DNA of 64,000 nucleotides from Phycisphaerales bacterium (lineage in GTDB: Bacteria > Planctomycetota > Phycisphaerae > Phycisphaerales > UBA1924), in NCBI GenBank assembly GCA_029260395.1, contig JAJDDJ010000018.1, forward strand, positions 310,001 to 374,000, given 5' to 3'. Positions 5,398-14,179 of this stretch are shown here, in pieces. The notes under the pieces are model-generated. The model ran no database searches and was not told the origin of the DNA. It saw only the letters and a program-made list of their open reading frames with translations. The translations under genes were made by a program, and so were the position numbers. Every line of letters starts with the position of its first letter. Position 1 is the first letter of the stretch.

Positions 5398-6816
5398 ATG
5401 CCTCAGTCCTCCAGCCCGTTCTCCACACTCTCCCCTCGAGTTCTCGCTCAGGTCGCGGCAGCGGCGCTGGTCGCATCGGCCGGCACCGCTTACGGCCAGT
5501 GCGATCCGGTCACCAACTACGGCGGTCCAAACACCATGGCGGTGGGTTCGCTCCCCAACGGTGTCGGCGTCGGCGATGCCAACAACGACGGAAACCTCGA
5601 CCTCGCCACCGGTAACTTCTTCGGCGGCGACGGCTCGCTCATCATCGGCAACGGCGACGGCACCTTTGCTCCCGCTATCCAGATCCCCATGGTCGCCGTG
5701 GGTGACACCTCGGGTGTCGGCGTTCAGGACGCGGCCATCGGCGACTTCAACGGCGACGGCTGGGGCGACCTCGCATTCACCGTGAACTCCGGTGACTTGG
5801 GGAATCCTGGCTTGGCCATCGTGATGAATGACGGCGCTGGCAACTTCCCAGGCCTGCCCACGTTCATCTCCTTCGCCACGCAGCCACGCGGCCTTGCTCT
5901 CGTCGACATCGACCAGGACGGCACGCTGGACATCATCTACTCGGACCGCGATCTTCTTACCCTCTTTATCGCACGGGGTAACGGCGACGGCACCTTCACA
6001 GTGGATGACACCACCCTCGCCGCTGGCGGGCCCACCGGTGTCGCTGTCAGCGACTTCAACGGCGACGGCTGGCTCGATGTCGCCTGTTCGCTCGTGTTCG
6101 ACGGCGCGGTTGCTATTTTCCTCAATGATGGCGCTGGCAATCTCGCCGAGTCCTCACGGGTGGCAGCGGACGGCCCCGAAGGCATCGCCGCAGGCGACTT
6201 CAACAACGACGGCTTCGCCGATCTCGTCATCCCGCACCTCAACGGAGACGAAGCCCAGTTCTTCATGAACAACGGTAACGGTACTTTTGGCGCCAAGCAG
6301 GTCATCAACACCGGTGCGGGCTCGCTGCCCATCGCTGTCGGCTCCAGTGATGCCAACGGTGACGGCTTCGATGACATCTTCCTCAGCGAGTTCCTCAACG
6401 CCGCCGTCCAGGTGCACCTGAGCAACGGCGATGGCACCTTCGCCGCCCCCAACTCGTTCCCGGCTGGGCAGCGCACCCGAGACATTGCCTTTGGTGACTT
6501 CAACAACGACGGCGCCGACGACCTTGCCGCCGCCAACGGTGCCACAGCCGGTACCGCGACCGTGATCCTCAACAACTGCGGCGGGGCCGCCGCCTGCACG
6601 GGCGACATCGCTGACGACTTCGGCAACCTGGGTGCCGATGGCATGGTCAGCTTCGGCGACTTCCTCGCGCTGCTCGGCCTCCTCGGGCCGTGCCCCGGCG
6701 GCGCTCCCGGCTGCACGGGTGATATTGCCGACGACTTCGGCAATCTCGGTGGCGACGGCATGGTCAGCTTCGGCGACTTCCTCGCCCTGCTCGGCCTCCT
6801 CGGGCCCTGCCCGTAA
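5398..6816 (+). CDS. Secreted FG-GAP/VCBS repeat protein with dockerin tail
   Basis: ATG 5398 is chosen because AAGGAG sits 10 bases upstream and the product then begins with a clear signal peptide (residues 1-35, cleavage after GTAYG-Q). The 472-residue protein has seven FG-GAP/VCBS repeats with calcium-binding-like cores, for example DANNDGNLDL, DFNGDGWGDL, DIDQDGTLDI, DFNGDGWLDV, DFNNDGFADL, DANGDGFDDI and DFNNDGADDL, which should fold as a beta-propeller. Residues about 401-472 are two dockerin units with flanking cysteines, nearly identical to those of the gene ending at 3500. It is probably an extracellular calcium-stabilised binding protein; the ligand is unknown. Confidence 0.88.
   Translation: MPQSSSPFSTLSPRVLAQVAAAALVASAGTAYGQCDPVTNYGGPNTMAVGSLPNGVGVGDANNDGNLDLATGNFFGGDGSLIIGNGDGTFAPAIQIPMVAVGDTSGVGVQDAAIGDFNGDGWGDLAFTVNSGDLGNPGLAIVMNDGAGNFPGLPTFISFATQPRGLALVDIDQDGTLDIIYSDRDLLTLFIARGNGDGTFTVDDTTLAAGGPTGVAVSDFNGDGWLDVACSLVFDGAVAIFLNDGAGNLAESSRVAADGPEGIAAGDFNNDGFADLVIPHLNGDEAQFFMNNGNGTFGAKQVINTGAGSLPIAVGSSDANGDGFDDIFLSEFLNAAVQVHLSNGDGTFAAPNSFPAGQRTRDIAFGDFNNDGADDLAAANGATAGTATVILNNCGGAAACTGDIADDFGNLGADGMVSFGDFLALLGLLGPCPGGAPGCTGDIADDFGNLGGDGMVSFGDFLALLGLLGPCP
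6604..6816 (+). repeat. Dockerin-tail cassette, copy 2
   Basis: This is the second copy of the 213-base dockerin cassette described at 3288-3500, differing at about four positions. It again ends exactly at the stop codon. Identity stops abruptly at its 5' edge, where the FG-GAP coding region begins. Confidence 0.9.
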
Positions 6817-6952: not shown

Positions 6953-8983
6953 TTAGCCGCCCGGCAGGTACTTATCGATCCAGTCGTCCTGACGGAGCAC
7001 GCCCTCGCGGTTGCGACGCGCCCGCGCCTCGGCGAGGGCCTGCGCCCTTCTGAACGCGCGTTTGGCGAGCGGGTGGCCGGTGATCTCGTGCTTGGTCGCG
7101 CCCGAGCCGAGCACCTTGACCATGCCCGGCGCGTGCTGCGTGATGAGTTCGTCCTCGAGGCTTACGAACGTCTGGCACGTGCCCGGGTCGCCTTGGCGAC
7201 CGGCGCGACCGATGAACTGGCGGTCGATGCGCTGGGCCGTGTGCATCTCGGTGAGAAGCACGTGCAGCCCGCCCGCATCAACGGCGGCCTTGTCGGGGAT
7301 GATGTCCGTGCCGCGGCCGGCCATATTGGTCGCCACCGTAATCGCCGCGCGGTGCGCACCGATCGGGCCCGTGCCCGCGTCAAGGATGAGGTCCGCTTCC
7401 TCGGCATCGTGCAGCGCGTTGAGCGTGGTGTGAGGCAGGTTGCGGTCTTCGAGCCGTTGCGACAGGTACTCGCTCGCCGCGATCGACCGCGTGCCCGCGA
7501 GCACGGGCTGGCCCGCGCCCGAGATCTGCTCGATGCTGTCAACAATCGCGTCCCACTTGGTGAGCTCGGTCGTGAACACCCGCATGGGCAGCGCCTTACG
7601 GATCAGCGGCCGGTTGGTCGGGATGACCACCACGGGCCTGCCGTAGACCTTCTCGATCTCACCGGTCGCGTCGGCCGCGGTGCCGGTCATTCCGCTGAGG
7701 AATGGGTAGCTTCGGAAGAACCGCTGAAAGCTCATCCGCGCGAGCGTCTCGCGGTCAGCGGTGATGTCCAAACCTTCTTTGGCCTCGACCGATTGGTGCA
7801 GGCCGTGCTCCCACGAGCGGTCGGCGAGGAATCGGCCGGTGTACTCATCAACGATGACGACCCGGCCATCGACGACGTGGTACTGCTGGCCGTGCTTGTA
7901 GCAGTGGCGCGCGACCAGCGCCTGTCGGACAAGTTCCTCGGCCCGTCGCGTGGCGCGCCAGATCGGGTCGCCCTGGGCTTCGAGCACTTGGTCGAACATC
8001 TGTTCGAGACGGACCTTGCCGCGTCGTTTAAGCTCGGCGGTGCGCTTGAGCCGGTCGATCGTGTAGTCGGGGCCTTCATCGAGCTTGGCTGCGAGCCTGG
8101 TGGACTCGCGGTAGACCTCGCTCAGCTCGTCCTCGGTTCGGCTGCGCGCGATGATCAACGGCACGACGCCCTCGTCGATCAGCACCGCGTCGGCCTCATC
8201 GACGATCGCGGCCTGCAAGCCCGGTATCAGCGGCCCCCCGCGACCGGTCGGGTCGAGCACCGCGCTCTGCCGGCCCGTCCACGCGTTGTTCATCTGCCCC
8301 ATTCGCAGTTGGTCGCGCAGGTAGTCGGCGGTGATCTGCTTGGGCGTGCCGTAGATGATGTGCCTGGCGTACACATCAGCGCGCGCTGTCGGGTCCATCT
8401 CCTGCTGGATGCATCCGACTTCGATCTTGCACCGCTTATAGATCGGCTCTCGGCTCTCGGCGTCACGCTTGGCGAGGTAGTCGTTCACCGTGAACACGTG
8501 CACGTGCCGTCGTCGCCACGCGATGAGCGGCCCGGCGATCGAGCCCGTAAGCGTCTTGCCCTCGCCCGTGACCATCTCGACGACCCGGCCGTAGTAGAGC
8601 CCGAGCGCGCCCATGAGCTGCACCGGGTAGGCCTCCTGGCCGGTCTCGCGCCGTGCGACCTCGCGCGTGGCGGCGAGTCCGCGCCGAACCAACGCTGCCT
8701 CCATCGCGTGCGCTCCGGGGCCTTTAGGCCTGCGGATGAAGCCCGAGCGGATCTCATCGACCGCTTCGTCGAGCGCGGACTCGTTCATGTTCCTGAACTC
8801 GTCGGCTCCTGCATCCGTGCGGTTGGCCTCGGCGAGCAGCCATGCGCGTCGCTCTCGCAGCTCGCCAGCCTTGACAATCGCGCGGTTGGCGATGGCATCA
8901 AGGCCCTTGCGCACCTCGGGTTTGCGACGGCGCGCACGAACCGCTTCGTAGAGCGCCTGGTAGCGTGTGATCGCCTGGTTCAT
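6953..8983 (-). CDS. SecA-like preprotein translocase ATPase, C-terminally short
   Basis: SecA drives proteins through SecYEG by ATP hydrolysis. Here GEGKT (Walker A) is at residues 140-144, DEAD at 262-265, a preprotein cross-linking region with IVDEYTGRFLADRSWEHGLHQ near 377-397, GMTGTA at 431, MAGRGTDI at 554 and GRAGRQGDPG at 592. The product is 676 residues against about 850-900 for housekeeping SecA: it ends only some 75 residues after the second nucleotide-binding domain, lacking most of the helical wing/scaffold region and the zinc-binding tail. ATG 8983 overlaps the stop of a tiny upstream ORF (ATGA). It is the last gene of a cluster of HlyD and M50 genes, suggesting a dedicated export motor rather than the general SecA. 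Confidence 0.88.
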   Translation of the reverse strand: MNQAITRYQALYEAVRARRRKPEVRKGLDAIANRAIVKAGELRERRAWLLAEANRTDAGADEFRNMNESALDEAVDEIRSGFIRRPKGPGAHAMEAALVRRGLAATREVARRETGQEAYPVQLMGALGLYYGRVVEMVTGEGKTLTGSIAGPLIAWRRRHVHVFTVNDYLAKRDAESREPIYKRCKIEVGCIQQEMDPTARADVYARHIIYGTPKQITADYLRDQLRMGQMNNAWTGRQSAVLDPTGRGGPLIPGLQAAIVDEADAVLIDEGVVPLIIARSRTEDELSEVYRESTRLAAKLDEGPDYTIDRLKRTAELKRRGKVRLEQMFDQVLEAQGDPIWRATRRAEELVRQALVARHCYKHGQQYHVVDGRVVIVDEYTGRFLADRSWEHGLHQSVEAKEGLDITADRETLARMSFQRFFRSYPFLSGMTGTAADATGEIEKVYGRPVVVIPTNRPLIRKALPMRVFTTELTKWDAIVDSIEQISGAGQPVLAGTRSIAASEYLSQRLEDRNLPHTTLNALHDAEEADLILDAGTGPIGAHRAAITVATNMAGRGTDIIPDKAAVDAGGLHVLLTEMHTAQRIDRQFIGRAGRQGDPGTCQTFVSLEDELITQHAPGMVKVLGSGATKHEITGHPLAKRAFRRAQALAEARARRNREGVLRQDDWIDKYLPGG

Positions 8984-9027
8984 GCGTGCTCGCCCAGTGC
9001 CATCATCAGTCTCATTATCGCGGCCAT
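8980..9027 (-). CDS. 15-codon coupling ORF between M50-HlyD and SecA-like genes
   Basis: ATG 9027-9025 overlaps the TGA of the M50-HlyD gene as ATGA, and the frame reads MAAIMRLMMALGEHA before TGA 8982-8980, which itself overlaps the ATG of the SecA-like gene as ATGA. Two consecutive stop-start overlaps would let one ribosome re-initiate through all three frames. The peptide is hydrophobic and Met-rich. It may be a coupling device or chance; I know of no homologue. Confidence 0.35.
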   Translation of the reverse strand: MAAIMRLMMALGEHA

Positions 9028-11207
9028 CAGATGTCCACCTTGCCCTGCACGAGCTTATGCAGCCGGTCCACCCATTGCACCAAATAGGGCTTGCTGGGCA
9101 GCGTGAACCGCAGGCGCACTCGCTCGCCCGGCAGACCCGGCCACGGCGTGCCGCCTTCATCGGGAGCCAGAGGCGTAACGTGCATGACAAACTGCGGGTC
9201 GCGTGCCATCAGGCCGCTCTGCTCAGACGGGTCCACCTCGATGGTTCCGCCGCCCGCGTAGCCGAACGAGGCATGAGGCAACTCGCGTTGGCCCGCTTCG
9301 ACCAGCTTGTCGACCCGGCCCACGAATACCTGATCCACCGCCGACACAAGCCGAAGCTCGACGCGGTAGTCATCCGTGCTCAGTTCATTGGGCCACGCGG
9401 CTTCCTGCTGTTCGAGCAGCGCCGTCACCCGCATGTCGCGGTCGTCGATAATCTGGCACACGGCCTCGCCCTCGCGGACGTACGCGCCGACGATGCGGGC
9501 CGGGTCCGCGCTGACCACTCGGCCAGCGATCGGCGCGCGCACGACGAGCGACTCGACCTTTGTGTGCAGGTACGCCGCCCGTGCGAGCTTGGTGGCGATC
9601 GACTGCTGAGCGATCTGCGCGCGGGCAAAGTCTTGCCGGCCGACGGCCTGCTGCTCCATCGCTTCAAGTTCTGCGATCTCCGCGCGGATCGTCGCGAGCT
9701 CGCTGGCCAGTCGCTCGTTCTCAAGCGTCAGGATCGGCTCGCCTTGGTCCACCCAATCGCCGATGCGTGCGTGCGAAGCAGTGACAAACCCGCCGGTCTC
9801 GAAGAACACTCCAGCCTCGGCCCGCGCCTCCATCACACCCGATGCCCGCCGGTTGTCGGGGGCGGGGATCATGCCAACAGCACCGATGCAGCCAGCGACC
9901 AGCAGGATGCTCGTCACGATCGAGCGGAAGCGGTGGTCCGCGTGCACGTGATGCGTAGCCAGCCAGTGGACCCACTTGCCCACAGGCATGATGAACCACA
10001 TGCCCGCGGTCCAGATCGCGAGAACCAGCCCAACCGCGAACAGCTTGCCCATCACATACAGCGTGATCGAGAAGAACAGGAAGATGCGGTAGGCCATCGC
10101 CAGTAGGCCGTACACGAACAAAATAGTGAGTTCGACCGGGTCGCTGCTCGGCGGTGTCTCGTTCTTGAGGCGGTAGAAGTAGACCTTGAACAGGTGCTTG
10201 AGCAGATTCTGCGAACGCTGCATCATGTTCGGAACTTCGAGCAGGTCCGCGAGGATGAAGTATCCGTCGAAGCGCATGAGCGGGTTGGCGTTGAACAGCA
10301 CCGTCGATACCGATGCGGTGAACAGCACGTTGTACGCAATCTGATGCGTGAGCGACCCGGGGTTGGTGTTGAGCCATACGAACGCCGCGATGGCCGCGAT
10401 GAACAGCTCGAACAGCATGCCGCCCGCGCCGACCGCGATGCGTTTCCACTTGTTCTCGAAGCCCCATGCCGCCGAGGCATCCACATACGGTGCCGGGAAC
10501 AGCACGAGCAGCATCACGCCGAACTCGGGCACCTGTCCGCCGTAGCGTTTGCAGATCACGCCGTGACCCGTCTCGTGGATCGCCTTTGTCACGATGAACG
10601 TCGCGATAAGCCAGGGCCACAGCGACGGGTTCGAGTAGACGTCCTCGGCGCTCGCAGCGAGTTGCTCCCACTCGGGCATCAGCTTGACGAGCGCAAAGAG
10701 CACCACGCCGAGCCACAGCGCGAAACCCCAGACGTTTAAGAGCGGCCTGAGCAGCGGCTCGATCCACGTCAGGTAAGCATCAGGATTGAACATCTTGACA
10801 CGGAAGTACATGATGCCGATCGCCTGCTGAACCGCCTTCTGCTTGAACCGGTCTCGTCCGCGCCGCAGAAGCTGGTCGGTCTCGGGGTTGGCGTCGGCCG
10901 ACAGCAGGTTCGAGTTGTAGAGCTGGCTCAGCAGCTGGATGGCCTCGTGCTGCGTCGGCGCGGTGTCGCCGTGCTTTTCGAGGCTGATCTTCCAGATGTC
11001 CTCGACCGTGCGTTTGCCGTCGAAGAGCCCGACGAACTGGTGGGCGATCGGGTTGAGCCTGTAGAACTGGTTGCTCGACGGATCTTTGACCACGTGCCAC
11101 CGCTTGCCGCGGTAGTGCTGGCGCGTGATCTGCACGTGCGGCCGCAGCCTTGGCTTCATCGCGCGAACGCGGTGCCAAAAGGGCGAGAAAGTTGGTCGCT
11201 CAGCCAC
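9027..11207 (-). CDS. PqqD-like / M50 site-2 protease / HlyD adaptor fusion
   Basis: This 726-residue inner-membrane protein starts at GTG 11207, placed by AAGGAG six bases upstream. Residues about 25-105 resemble PqqD-type peptide-binding domains (YRLNPIAHQFVGLFDGKRTVEDIW). The membrane part contains the zinc protease signature HETGH at 211-215 and the third-ligand motif NPLMRFDG at 308-315, with about seven hydrophobic segments between 158 and 465. The C-terminus (about 475-726) is a HlyD-type barrel-sandwich with a short coiled coil near 500-545. Such proteins are annotated as putative peptide zinc metalloproteases, some next to peptide-export systems. It sits between a GAF-HlyD gene and a SecA-like gene. 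Confidence 0.85.
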   Translation of the reverse strand: MAERPTFSPFWHRVRAMKPRLRPHVQITRQHYRGKRWHVVKDPSSNQFYRLNPIAHQFVGLFDGKRTVEDIWKISLEKHGDTAPTQHEAIQLLSQLYNSNLLSADANPETDQLLRRGRDRFKQKAVQQAIGIMYFRVKMFNPDAYLTWIEPLLRPLLNVWGFALWLGVVLFALVKLMPEWEQLAASAEDVYSNPSLWPWLIATFIVTKAIHETGHGVICKRYGGQVPEFGVMLLVLFPAPYVDASAAWGFENKWKRIAVGAGGMLFELFIAAIAAFVWLNTNPGSLTHQIAYNVLFTASVSTVLFNANPLMRFDGYFILADLLEVPNMMQRSQNLLKHLFKVYFYRLKNETPPSSDPVELTILFVYGLLAMAYRIFLFFSITLYVMGKLFAVGLVLAIWTAGMWFIMPVGKWVHWLATHHVHADHRFRSIVTSILLVAGCIGAVGMIPAPDNRRASGVMEARAEAGVFFETGGFVTASHARIGDWVDQGEPILTLENERLASELATIRAEIAELEAMEQQAVGRQDFARAQIAQQSIATKLARAAYLHTKVESLVVRAPIAGRVVSADPARIVGAYVREGEAVCQIIDDRDMRVTALLEQQEAAWPNELSTDDYRVELRLVSAVDQVFVGRVDKLVEAGQRELPHASFGYAGGGTIEVDPSEQSGLMARDPQFVMHVTPLAPDEGGTPWPGLPGERVRLRFTLPSKPYLVQWVDRLHKLVQGKVDI

Positions 11208-11249
11208 GCGCCGCTCCTTGAAGCAACAGTTCGGACACCCGCACGAAAC

Positions 11250-13223
11250 TCACCACCAGAGCCTCAGCCGCAGCGTGTCGCGGATGCGCCGGGTGCCGAT
11301 ATCGAGCAGCGTTCGCTTGCCCGTGTCGAACTTGGCGAGCCCCTCCATGCCCGGCCGCATCCACGCGGGCGGATCGTCGAGGGTGGCGCGCACCTCAAAC
11401 GCGTTCGTCCCGTCTTCGGGCGAGGCCAGCGGCACGACGCGGTCCACCGTCATCGGGCTGCGACGATCGGGGTACGCCTTGGTCGCCAGATCGCCCGTCA
11501 TGCCCTCGGTCACCAGCGAGATATCCCGGTCCTGCACGCGAGCCACAATCGTGAGCTGATCCAGCGGTGCGATCTCGTACAGCCCGTCGCCGAGCGTTAC
11601 GGATGAGCCCACCCGCTGCGAGAGATCGCCCGCGAGAATGCGCCCATCAATCGGCGACGTGATTACTGCCTTGGCGATCAGGTGGTCATACAGGTCGATC
11701 TGCGCTTGAGCCTGAGCGATCTGCTGCTCGACCTGCTTGAACGCAGCGGTGTCCCGTTCACTCAGCGCGCGGTCGGCGTCCTTCTCGGCCTCAGCCCGCT
11801 TGGCAATAGCCGAAAGACGCTGGAGTTCCATCTCCGACGTATCCAGCCGCGCGAGCACCTGGCCCGCGCTGACCTCGTCGCCCTCCTTCAGGTTCTCAGT
11901 CACGCTCGCGATGATGCCCTCGAACGGCGCTGAAACAAATCGGCGGTTCTGCGCTTCGAGGATCACCGGCGCTTCGACGCGGTAGGGAACCTGCACAAAC
12001 GTCACCCCGATCGCGACCGCCATGACCGCGAGCCCGCCGAGCTTCCACACCGTGTGCTTCGCGCCCACCAGCCAGCCCGCGGCCTTCACCGTGTCGTCGT
12101 ACGCCCGCAGCCCCGTGTGCCGGTCCGCGGTTCGGCGAAGCCTGAGCACCGGTGCAAGCAGGTCGCACGCGCTCTGCAGCAGTTCAACGCCCGCCAGATC
12201 GATCCCCTTGTCCGCCGCGGTCTCGATGGTCAGCACGCCGACCACGTCCTCGTCGACCCGCATCGGGATCGAAACGAGCTTGAGCCGCGCGTCGGCCGCG
12301 CCCAGCGCCTTGTGCGCGTGGGTGACCGCCTGGGCCAGCAGCACATCGCCCTCCGCGCCGTCCGCGCCTGAACGCTCCGGCGGCGGCGGGTACACGATCG
12401 GTTGCTCCTGATCCAGGCACTCGTCCATCGCGTCTTCGAGCTGCTTGACCATCGCGAGCCGGCGGTCGATGTTCTCGGTATCGCTGATCGCCACGGTCTT
12501 GACCGCGCCGCCCTCGCCGCCCGCGTCAAGCCCCTTGGTCCAGCCCAGCGCCACGCGGTCGGCACCCAGCTGCCGACTCAGGTCGTTGCACATCTGCATC
12601 GTCGCGCCCTTGAAGCTCGTCGATGTATTCACCGACCCGATGAGCTTGGTCGCCAGATCAAGCGCCTGCGCGGCCGCCTGCGTGCGCCTCAGCGTCTGCC
12701 GAGCGCCGTGCCCGTGCACATACCCGACGATCAGTTCGACCACCGCCAGCGTCGTCTGCATTGCTTGGGGGCTTCGGCCGTCGAGCAGCAGCGTGACGAC
12801 CTGCCGCGTCGCGCCGCCCGCCGCGCCGATGGGCGCCGCGATCAGAAAGCCCGTGCTCTGCGCGTCGTAAAACTGCGAATCGTTCTCGGTGCCGAAGACC
12901 TCGATCTTGCCGCGATGGCCAGCGGTGCGGGCCGCGGTCTTGGTGTCGAGTTCGAGCTCGATCTGTCCCTCAGCCGGAGCCGATGGCGGCTGCTCGGGGT
13001 TGGCGCTGGGCCACACCAGCAGCCCGCGCGGCTCGGCCGCCGCCTGCGCATCGTCGCCGTCTGCGGCGGGCACCGCCCACAGCACGCCCTGCTTGGCGCC
13101 GCTCGCCTGCGAGACCACAGCGAGCAGACGCATCAGAAACACCCGATCGTCGGGCGCGTCCGCGGTCAGTTCCGTTACGATTCGCTGCCAGCCCGGCGAC
13201 CGGAGCTTGCCCTGGTCGATCAT
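11250..13223 (-). CDS. GAF-like domain and HlyD-type membrane-fusion adaptor
   Basis: ATG 13223 is preceded by GGAGG and overlaps the upstream stop as ATGA, so translation is coupled. The 657-residue product has two GAF-like regions on the cytoplasmic side (about 20-170 and 190-365), one membrane helix (393-411), then a HlyD barrel-sandwich (412-462), a coiled-coil hairpin (465-520) and a beta-barrel. The adaptor part would reach into the periplasm. A sensory module fused to an export adaptor suggests that export responds to a cytoplasmic ligand; no ligand can be named. Neighbours are another HlyD-type adaptor and the M50-HlyD fusion. Confidence 0.82.
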   Translation of the reverse strand: MIDQGKLRSPGWQRIVTELTADAPDDRVFLMRLLAVVSQASGAKQGVLWAVPAADGDDAQAAAEPRGLLVWPSANPEQPPSAPAEGQIELELDTKTAARTAGHRGKIEVFGTENDSQFYDAQSTGFLIAAPIGAAGGATRQVVTLLLDGRSPQAMQTTLAVVELIVGYVHGHGARQTLRRTQAAAQALDLATKLIGSVNTSTSFKGATMQMCNDLSRQLGADRVALGWTKGLDAGGEGGAVKTVAISDTENIDRRLAMVKQLEDAMDECLDQEQPIVYPPPPERSGADGAEGDVLLAQAVTHAHKALGAADARLKLVSIPMRVDEDVVGVLTIETAADKGIDLAGVELLQSACDLLAPVLRLRRTADRHTGLRAYDDTVKAAGWLVGAKHTVWKLGGLAVMAVAIGVTFVQVPYRVEAPVILEAQNRRFVSAPFEGIIASVTENLKEGDEVSAGQVLARLDTSEMELQRLSAIAKRAEAEKDADRALSERDTAAFKQVEQQIAQAQAQIDLYDHLIAKAVITSPIDGRILAGDLSQRVGSSVTLGDGLYEIAPLDQLTIVARVQDRDISLVTEGMTGDLATKAYPDRRSPMTVDRVVPLASPEDGTNAFEVRATLDDPPAWMRPGMEGLAKFDTGKRTLLDIGTRRIRDTLRLRLWW

Positions 13224-14179
13224 TCCTCGCCTCCCCCGATGGCCGTCAGCCCGACCACGTCGCCGTCGTGCTCGCTCTGCCATGCCTCGCTCGGCTCGTT
13301 GAACCGCACCCAGCAGTTCAGGCCCGGCGGCAACTGCTCAGGGTTCGCGATCTCAACGCGCACTCGTCTCGCTCCGCCGCCCGCGTCGGCCGTCGGCGCG
13401 ACCTCTACCACCGTGCCCTCGAACACCATCGGCTTGTCGAGCACCGGCATCAGAACCCACGCCTTCTGCCCGCCCGCCGGATCAAGCGAGAGCGACTCCT
13501 GCGTCGGCACAGGCACATCGATCCACAGCACATCCACGTTGACCACGCGGATCACCGGGTCGCCCTGCTGCACGCTCTGGCCGACATCCACCGTGACCAC
13601 GTCAACCACCCCATCAAACGGTGCCGTCAGTCGGTAGCGATCAACACGGGCAAACGCGCGCGATGCCTGCAACGCCGCCAGCGTCTGGTTCAGCTCAGAA
13701 AGTTTGAGATCGATCAGCGTTGTGCGGTACCGCGACTCCGATCGCTGGTACTCCGCCGGCGACAGGCCTTCCTGCGCGAACGCCTCCTTCGCGCGGTCGA
13801 ACTCCAGCTTGGCGAGGTCAACATCCGCCTGCGCCCGCTCGACGGGCAGCTTGGTCGTCGCCCGCGCATCCTGGAACTTGGCCTCGGCAAGGTCTTCGGC
13901 GTCCTCGCCGCGGATCAGCAGGTCTCCCTGCTCTACCCGCTGGCCGCCCGTGACCGCGACTTCCATGACAGCCGTCGGGATCGAGAACCCGATCGCTGCA
14001 TCCCGGCTTGGCCGAGTGACGGCGCGATGCCCGTCAAAGAGGTTGATCCATTCAAGCTGGCGCTCGCGGGCATCGTCGATGGTCTTGGCCGAGTCTCGGC
14101 CTCGGGTCTGTCCGGCCGCCGGGGCTGCCAGCAAGCCCGCTATCGCCACGCTCAAGAGCACGCATTGCAACTGTCTCAT
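13220..14179 (-). CDS. HlyD/RND-type periplasmic adaptor protein
   Basis: ATG 14179 is chosen because GAGGA precedes it and the product then starts with a signal peptide (residues 1-23, MRQLQCVLLSVAIAGLLAAP then AAGQ). The mature part has a lipoyl/barrel-sandwich half-motif (VAVTGGQRVEQGDLL near 75), a coiled-coil hairpin (about 95-170), a second half-motif (APFDGVVDVVTVDVGQSVQQGDPV near 187) and a beta-barrel. At 319 residues it is a compact adaptor of the kind that bridges an inner-membrane exporter to an outer-membrane channel. It is the first gene of the minus-strand cluster and overlaps the next start by ATGA. No transporter permease or TolC gene is adjacent. Confidence 0.82.
   Translation of the reverse strand: MRQLQCVLLSVAIAGLLAAPAAGQTRGRDSAKTIDDARERQLEWINLFDGHRAVTRPSRDAAIGFSIPTAVMEVAVTGGQRVEQGDLLIRGEDAEDLAEAKFQDARATTKLPVERAQADVDLAKLEFDRAKEAFAQEGLSPAEYQRSESRYRTTLIDLKLSELNQTLAALQASRAFARVDRYRLTAPFDGVVDVVTVDVGQSVQQGDPVIRVVNVDVLWIDVPVPTQESLSLDPAGGQKAWVLMPVLDKPMVFEGTVVEVAPTADAGGGARRVRVEIANPEQLPPGLNCWVRFNEPSEAWQSEHDGDVVGLTAIGGGEE

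Follow-up and report, generated by a model that had tools for sequence, protein, structure and literature searches.

We describe a conserved four-gene locus that we consider, at a probability of roughly 60%, to be a dedicated secretion route for proteins with an N-terminal LEPR-XLL leader. LEPR-XLL proteins, often giant repetitive surface proteins, are tied to this module both statistically and by position; this tie, the conservation of the unit, its domains and the truncation of its SecA-like protein were all established directly. The export of proteins of 8,000–14,000 residues by bacteria is poorly understood, and no cargo has been assigned to the module since its description in 2015. Should the LEPR link hold, giant proteins across many phyla would gain a motor, a processing protease and a leader that can be tested.

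The original prediction made from this DNA presented the system as undescribed. This has to be withdrawn since the same module, with the same inference, was published in 2015, when Kamneva, Poudel & Ward described "secondary SecA_DEAD" loci and noted that SecA_SW was absent (PMC4452313). Those authors proposed the SecA core as a substitute for an ABC ATPase and the M50 protein as a possible pore; they named no cargo and did not mention PqqD, DUF3467 or LEPR (PMC4452313). What appears to be new here is the putative assignment of LEPR proteins as cargo, which is statistical and positional; no earlier cargo assignment for the module was found in the journal papers searched. LEPR-XLL itself appears in two of these papers, and a passage of one, on a Vibrio genome, describes it in passing.

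Organization of the locus

The window (the whole stretch of 64,000 nucleotides that was analysed) corresponds to C18:310001-374000 of a 3.2 Mb draft genome. Profile searches resolved a minus-strand run from 14179 to 6953 into four genes, whose strand, coordinates and domains all agreed with those first predicted. These genes, together with a mini-ORF, are as follows:

13220 to 14179, minus strand: adaptor 1, a periplasmic HlyD/RND-type protein with Sec signal peptide MRQLQCVLLSVAIAGLLAAPAAG (319 aa; HlyD_3, E = 5.5e-16)
11250 to 13223, minus strand: GAF-HlyD fusion (GAF, E = 1.9e-6; HlyD_D23, E = 4.9e-18)
9027 to 11207, minus strand: PqqD-M50-HlyD fusion (PqqD 26.9, M50 28.1 and HlyD_3 39.9 bits, each above its Pfam cut-off)
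8982 to 9027, minus strand: 15-codon mini-ORF MAAIMRLMMALGEHA, spanning the gap between the M50 and SecA-like genes (direct reading of the sequence)
6953 to 8983, minus strand: SecA-like (secondary SecA_DEAD) protein (SecA_DEAD 4.8e-78, SecA_PP_bind 2.4e-23, P-loop_SecA 8.1e-45)

Adaptor 1 also matched RND_mfp over the cut-off (104 bits). The GAF-HlyD protein is laid out as a cytoplasmic GAF-like part, a single membrane helix and a periplasmic HlyD part. The third gene joins a leader-binding-type domain, a site-2-type membrane metalloprotease and an HlyD adaptor; its HETGH and NPLMRFDG motifs are intact, as had been claimed, and the catalytic residues H211, E212, H215 and D314 are invariant across 17 relatives. 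An AlphaFold2 model of this protein reached a pLDDT of 86, and its HlyD part matched MexA/AcrA at 1e-12 (Foldseek).

Of the two ATGA couplings read earlier, the one at 13220 is real and joins adaptor 1 to GAF-HlyD. The one placed at 9027/8983 is not, because 43 bases separate the M50 stop codon from the start of the SecA-like gene; the mini-ORF bridges this gap, beginning in TGATG over the former and finishing in ATGA over the latter. The scan of neighbouring ORFs detected no permease domain of ABC or RND type, which is in line with the original claim that the locus has neither.

Conservation of the neighbourhood

Scanning 84,980 species with a set of SecA-linked M50 queries yielded the best 80 loci, ranked by similarity. 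GAF-HlyD was present in 77/80 of these loci, the small adaptor family in 65/80, TolC in 17/80 and the SecA-like gene in 71/80, a share that is not unbiased because the loci were ranked by their likeness to SecA-linked M50 proteins. Besides Planctomycetota, the 80 loci come from seven or more further bacterial groups (including alpha-, beta- and gamma-proteobacteria, Verrucomicrobiota, Nitrospirota, Desulfobacterota, Omnitrophota, and others), and a full set occurs in Methylosinus, with a giant gene, DUF3467, GAF-HlyD, PqqD-M50, SecA-like, adaptor and TolC.

Within Planctomycetota, relatives of the M50 gene were found in 67/294 genomes, and 40 sampled loci had GAF-HlyD adjoining M50 in 35 cases and the SecA-like gene in 26. 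Planctomycete SecA-like genes, called by frame length and model coverage, occurred in at least 39/294 genomes, 38 of which also encoded M50 among the matches listed (p = 3e-28, not phylogeny-corrected); about 29 genomes had M50 with no SecA-like gene detected among the matches listed. The distances of M50, SecA-like and GAF-HlyD are correlated (r = 0.89–0.94, 62 loci), and the three therefore travel together. The four-gene grouping is far beyond chance and is a conserved unit, co-occurring across Planctomycetota, where the original prediction proposed to look, and outside the phylum as well. Genes that fail to co-occur, or a SecA-like gene kept apart from the adaptors, are not what the genome comparison showed, and so the idea of a single system stands.

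Variants and additional neighbours were also observed. Plasmids of Niveispirillum and Citrobacter (L090, L091) carry TolC, adaptor, HlyD and M50-HlyD genes behind a giant gene, without SecA-like or DUF3467. DUF3467, a small protein, recurs in the neighbourhood (14/40 and 17/80 loci; L039, L049, L085, L114 and others), and in the present genome its gene is on contig 2 (C2:90761-91039), unlinked to the locus. A role for DUF3467 as a SecB-like chaperone was considered and rejected as unsupported: its AlphaFold2 fold is beta-beta-beta-alpha (pLDDT 74), no PDB match was significant (the best was PC4 at E = 0.4), and no sequence relative was found in the PDB.

PilZ-like proteins, called by eye from a sequence motif, lie near L060:3220-3678, L068:5345-5776, L070:2480-2902 and L071:13174-13668, and suggest possible cyclic-di-GMP control at some loci. 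This hint of signalling, together with the GAF-HlyD fusion, would suit regulated proteolysis, where M50 and the GAF part sense a signal and release membrane-held LEPR proteins that are transported by another system. Such an explanation does not account for three HlyD adaptors, TolC and the SecA core, and we consider it very unlikely.

LEPR-XLL proteins as candidate cargo

The prediction of a route for a specific cargo gained support from the co-occurrence and adjacency of LEPR-XLL proteins (N-terminal motif NCBIfam NF012209; LEPR-8K matches were counted). Specifically, LEPR was detected in 27/294 Planctomycetota genomes, and 26 of these 27 were among the 67 genomes with M50 (p = 5e-18, not phylogeny-corrected). 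Among M50 genomes, it was found in 20/38 with a SecA-like gene versus 6/29 without (p = 0.007, with SecA-like genes counted among the matches listed). LEPR proteins were also present in 43/50 M50-bearing genomes outside Planctomycetota. In a comparison set of 289 Alphaproteobacteria, LEPR occurred in two genomes, both with M50, and 11 of the 13 M50 genomes of the set had no LEPR match. These co-occurrence tests carry no correction for phylogeny beyond the span of several phyla.

With regard to position, a LEPR frame directly adjoins the module in 21 loci by coordinate match (six further coincidences were discarded by eye), reaching 14,390 codons. Frames tied to the module include those of Sulfuritalea (14,390 codons), Rhodoferax (13,995) and Aquabacter (8,687). 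On alphaproteobacterial plasmids, the module genes stand behind a giant gene annotated as LEPR-XLL, Ig-like or LamG. Five plasmid giants adjoining the module start with the NCBIfam LEPR-8K motif, and a sixth, beside the SecA-less relative L090, has the related start LEPRMMFDAA and a DUF4347 domain. In two planctomycetes where the SecA-like gene lies away from M50 (L197, L199), it adjoins a LEDR-type protein of ~1,560–1,590 aa. The longest LEPR frame seen measured 18,012 codons (L156 genome, G327:C10:53906), and its link to the module is putative.

LEPR N-termini consist of a basic stretch followed by an L-E-x-(L/M/I)-E-x-R-x-L-L-S-A-D-like sequence. In the sampled loci, the motif was observed at 17 ORF starts versus 0.7 in shuffles, and at an internal control position it was found in 0/1038. 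Their hydrophobic peak is lower than that of Sec signal peptides (1.34 vs 2.21; p = 1e-11). A common C-terminal motif among the giants was looked for, and no clear consensus emerged. The genome studied here has one LEPR protein, of ~1,340 aa on contig 22, with the N-terminus VNLRTTLLRRAGQPLPTKLVENLEPRVLLAADP; its motif (C22:12776-12823) scored 27 bits against a cut-off of 17. The convergent FG-GAP gene next to the locus (window 5399-6816) was not adopted as cargo, since it lacks a LEPR motif and its signal peptide is of the ordinary Sec type.

Leader peptides are bound by PqqD-type domains. An alternative is that the PqqD-M50 protein cleaves small ribosomal peptides, in the manner of daptide and YydH/LiaK clusters, and that HlyD exports the products. 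The proteases of those clusters likewise pair an M50 metalloprotease with a PqqD-type domain, fused or otherwise linked, and the top NCBIfam match of our M50 protein was indeed the daptide intramembrane protease (NF041824). However, that match, at 170 bits, is far under the curated cut-off of 300 (for YydH/LiaK, 39 vs 225 bits), the protein has an added HlyD domain, and the genes that recur beside it encode giant LEPR proteins rather than short precursors. We therefore regard peptide maturation as highly improbable.

The truncated SecA-like protein

The SecA-like protein (676 aa) retains NBD1, PPXD and NBD2 with intact ATPase motifs. In sequence comparison, the protein and its relatives end near residue 660 of E. 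coli SecA, so that the scaffold helix is largely lost, as are the wing, the two-helix finger and the tail; a Pfam profile search gave no match to SecA_SW. The protein scored 491 bits with the canonical SecA equivalog model (cut-off 800) and 340–428 bits with SecA2 models (cut-offs 725–1100), below the threshold in every case. A tree grouped the SecA-like copies with a node support of 0.29, and was set aside as evidence of monophyly; the shared truncation point is the better evidence.

Most SecA-like copies retain intact ATPase motifs. Three copies in the operon place are degenerate (L047:11157-13109, L158:12127-13848 and L164:11901-14078), having lost Walker A, the DE-D motif, motif V and motif VI. 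Loss of all four motifs on whole-length genes was confined to these three, and some failures of single motifs stem from contig edges or from the strictness of the patterns.

When SecA is active in complex with SecY, its finger enters the channel and acts together with the clamp (PMC6599042). A similarly cut E. coli protein, SecA-N68, still shows high affinity for SecYEG, constitutive ATPase activity and signal-peptide binding, but is unable to translocate (PMC5603524). The original prediction had the protein act as a motor that pushes cargo through SecYEG. This simple motor reading is unproven because the finger, wing and tail are missing, SecA-N68 does not translocate and three lineages have copies with degenerate ATPase motifs.

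These same observations bear on a two-step route, in which canonical SecA would take the cargo through SecYEG, the SecA-like core would dock or regulate, and M50, HlyD and TolC would carry out processing and outer-membrane passage. The behaviour of SecA-N68 (PMC5603524), the single SecY of this genome and the retention of motif-less copies in L047, L158 and L164 are all consistent with it. Nonetheless, LEPR N-termini are unlike Sec signal peptides and the ATPase motifs are intact in most copies, and we judge a two-step route to be unlikely, at perhaps one chance in a handful.

Proposed mechanism and relation to known systems

For a dedicated LEPR secretion route, we infer the following steps, from binding and cutting of the leader to the pore, the transport direction and regulation by GAF. 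The PqqD-type domain of the M50 protein would bind the LEPR leader in the cytoplasm, and the SecA-like core would grip the unfolded chain and, at the cost of ATP, feed or hold it. The inner membrane may be crossed either at SecYEG or at the membrane domain of the M50 protein, whose protease site would cut off the leader. Across the periplasm, the three HlyD-type proteins would form a duct leading to a TolC-type outer-membrane channel, the gene for which lies elsewhere in the genome. Regulation may involve the GAF part, whose suggested role in gating is a guess. Several observations count against this route: the LEPR, DUF3467 and TolC genes of this genome are all away from the locus, the SecA-like family is truncated and in three lineages degenerate, about 29 planctomycete M50 genomes yielded no SecA-like gene among the matches listed, and most alphaproteobacterial M50 genomes gave no LEPR match. 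Should the LEPR link hold, a SecA core could work, or scaffold, without the finger and wing thought necessary for translocation.

The locus shares with the module of Kamneva 2015 a SecA_DEAD protein without SecA_SW, M50-HlyD, GAF-HlyD and HlyD neighbours, sometimes OEP, and overlapping phyla; here too, no ABC transporter was seen among the scanned neighbours. Methylobacterium extorquens AM1 is one strain with the operon (META1p2402-2399; PMC4452313). To the 2015 description the present analysis adds the cargo link, the PqqD domain and the precise point of truncation. Type I secretion (HlyB-HlyD-TolC; LapBCE type) offers a further likeness in its HlyD-type adaptors and in large repetitive surface proteins, the likely cargo here. 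A TolC-type channel is encoded in the loci of 17/80 relatives, and in this genome all TolC genes are away from the locus. In contrast to type I secretion, the locus encodes a SecA core along with a site-2-type protease in place of an ABC exporter, and the LEPR motif is N-terminal whereas the type I secretion motif is C-terminal. We tentatively suggest, at slightly less than even odds, that the system forms a separate secretion class, defined by a PqqD-read LEPR leader, a site-2-type protease gate, a SecA-core motor stripped of its SecY-inserting parts and cargo that includes some of the largest bacterial proteins (LEPR frames of up to 18,012 codons).

Accessory SecA2 systems also place a second SecA next to the housekeeping SecA in the genome's complement. 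The present protein differs from SecA2 in the absence of the wing domain, two-helix finger and tail, in scores far under the SecA2 cut-offs and in the lack of a second (private) SecY, which was not found in this genome. The housekeeping SecA (C2:209596-211227) is located in a 1,403-codon open frame, which is longer than usual, and its SecA_DEAD match falls in two pieces.
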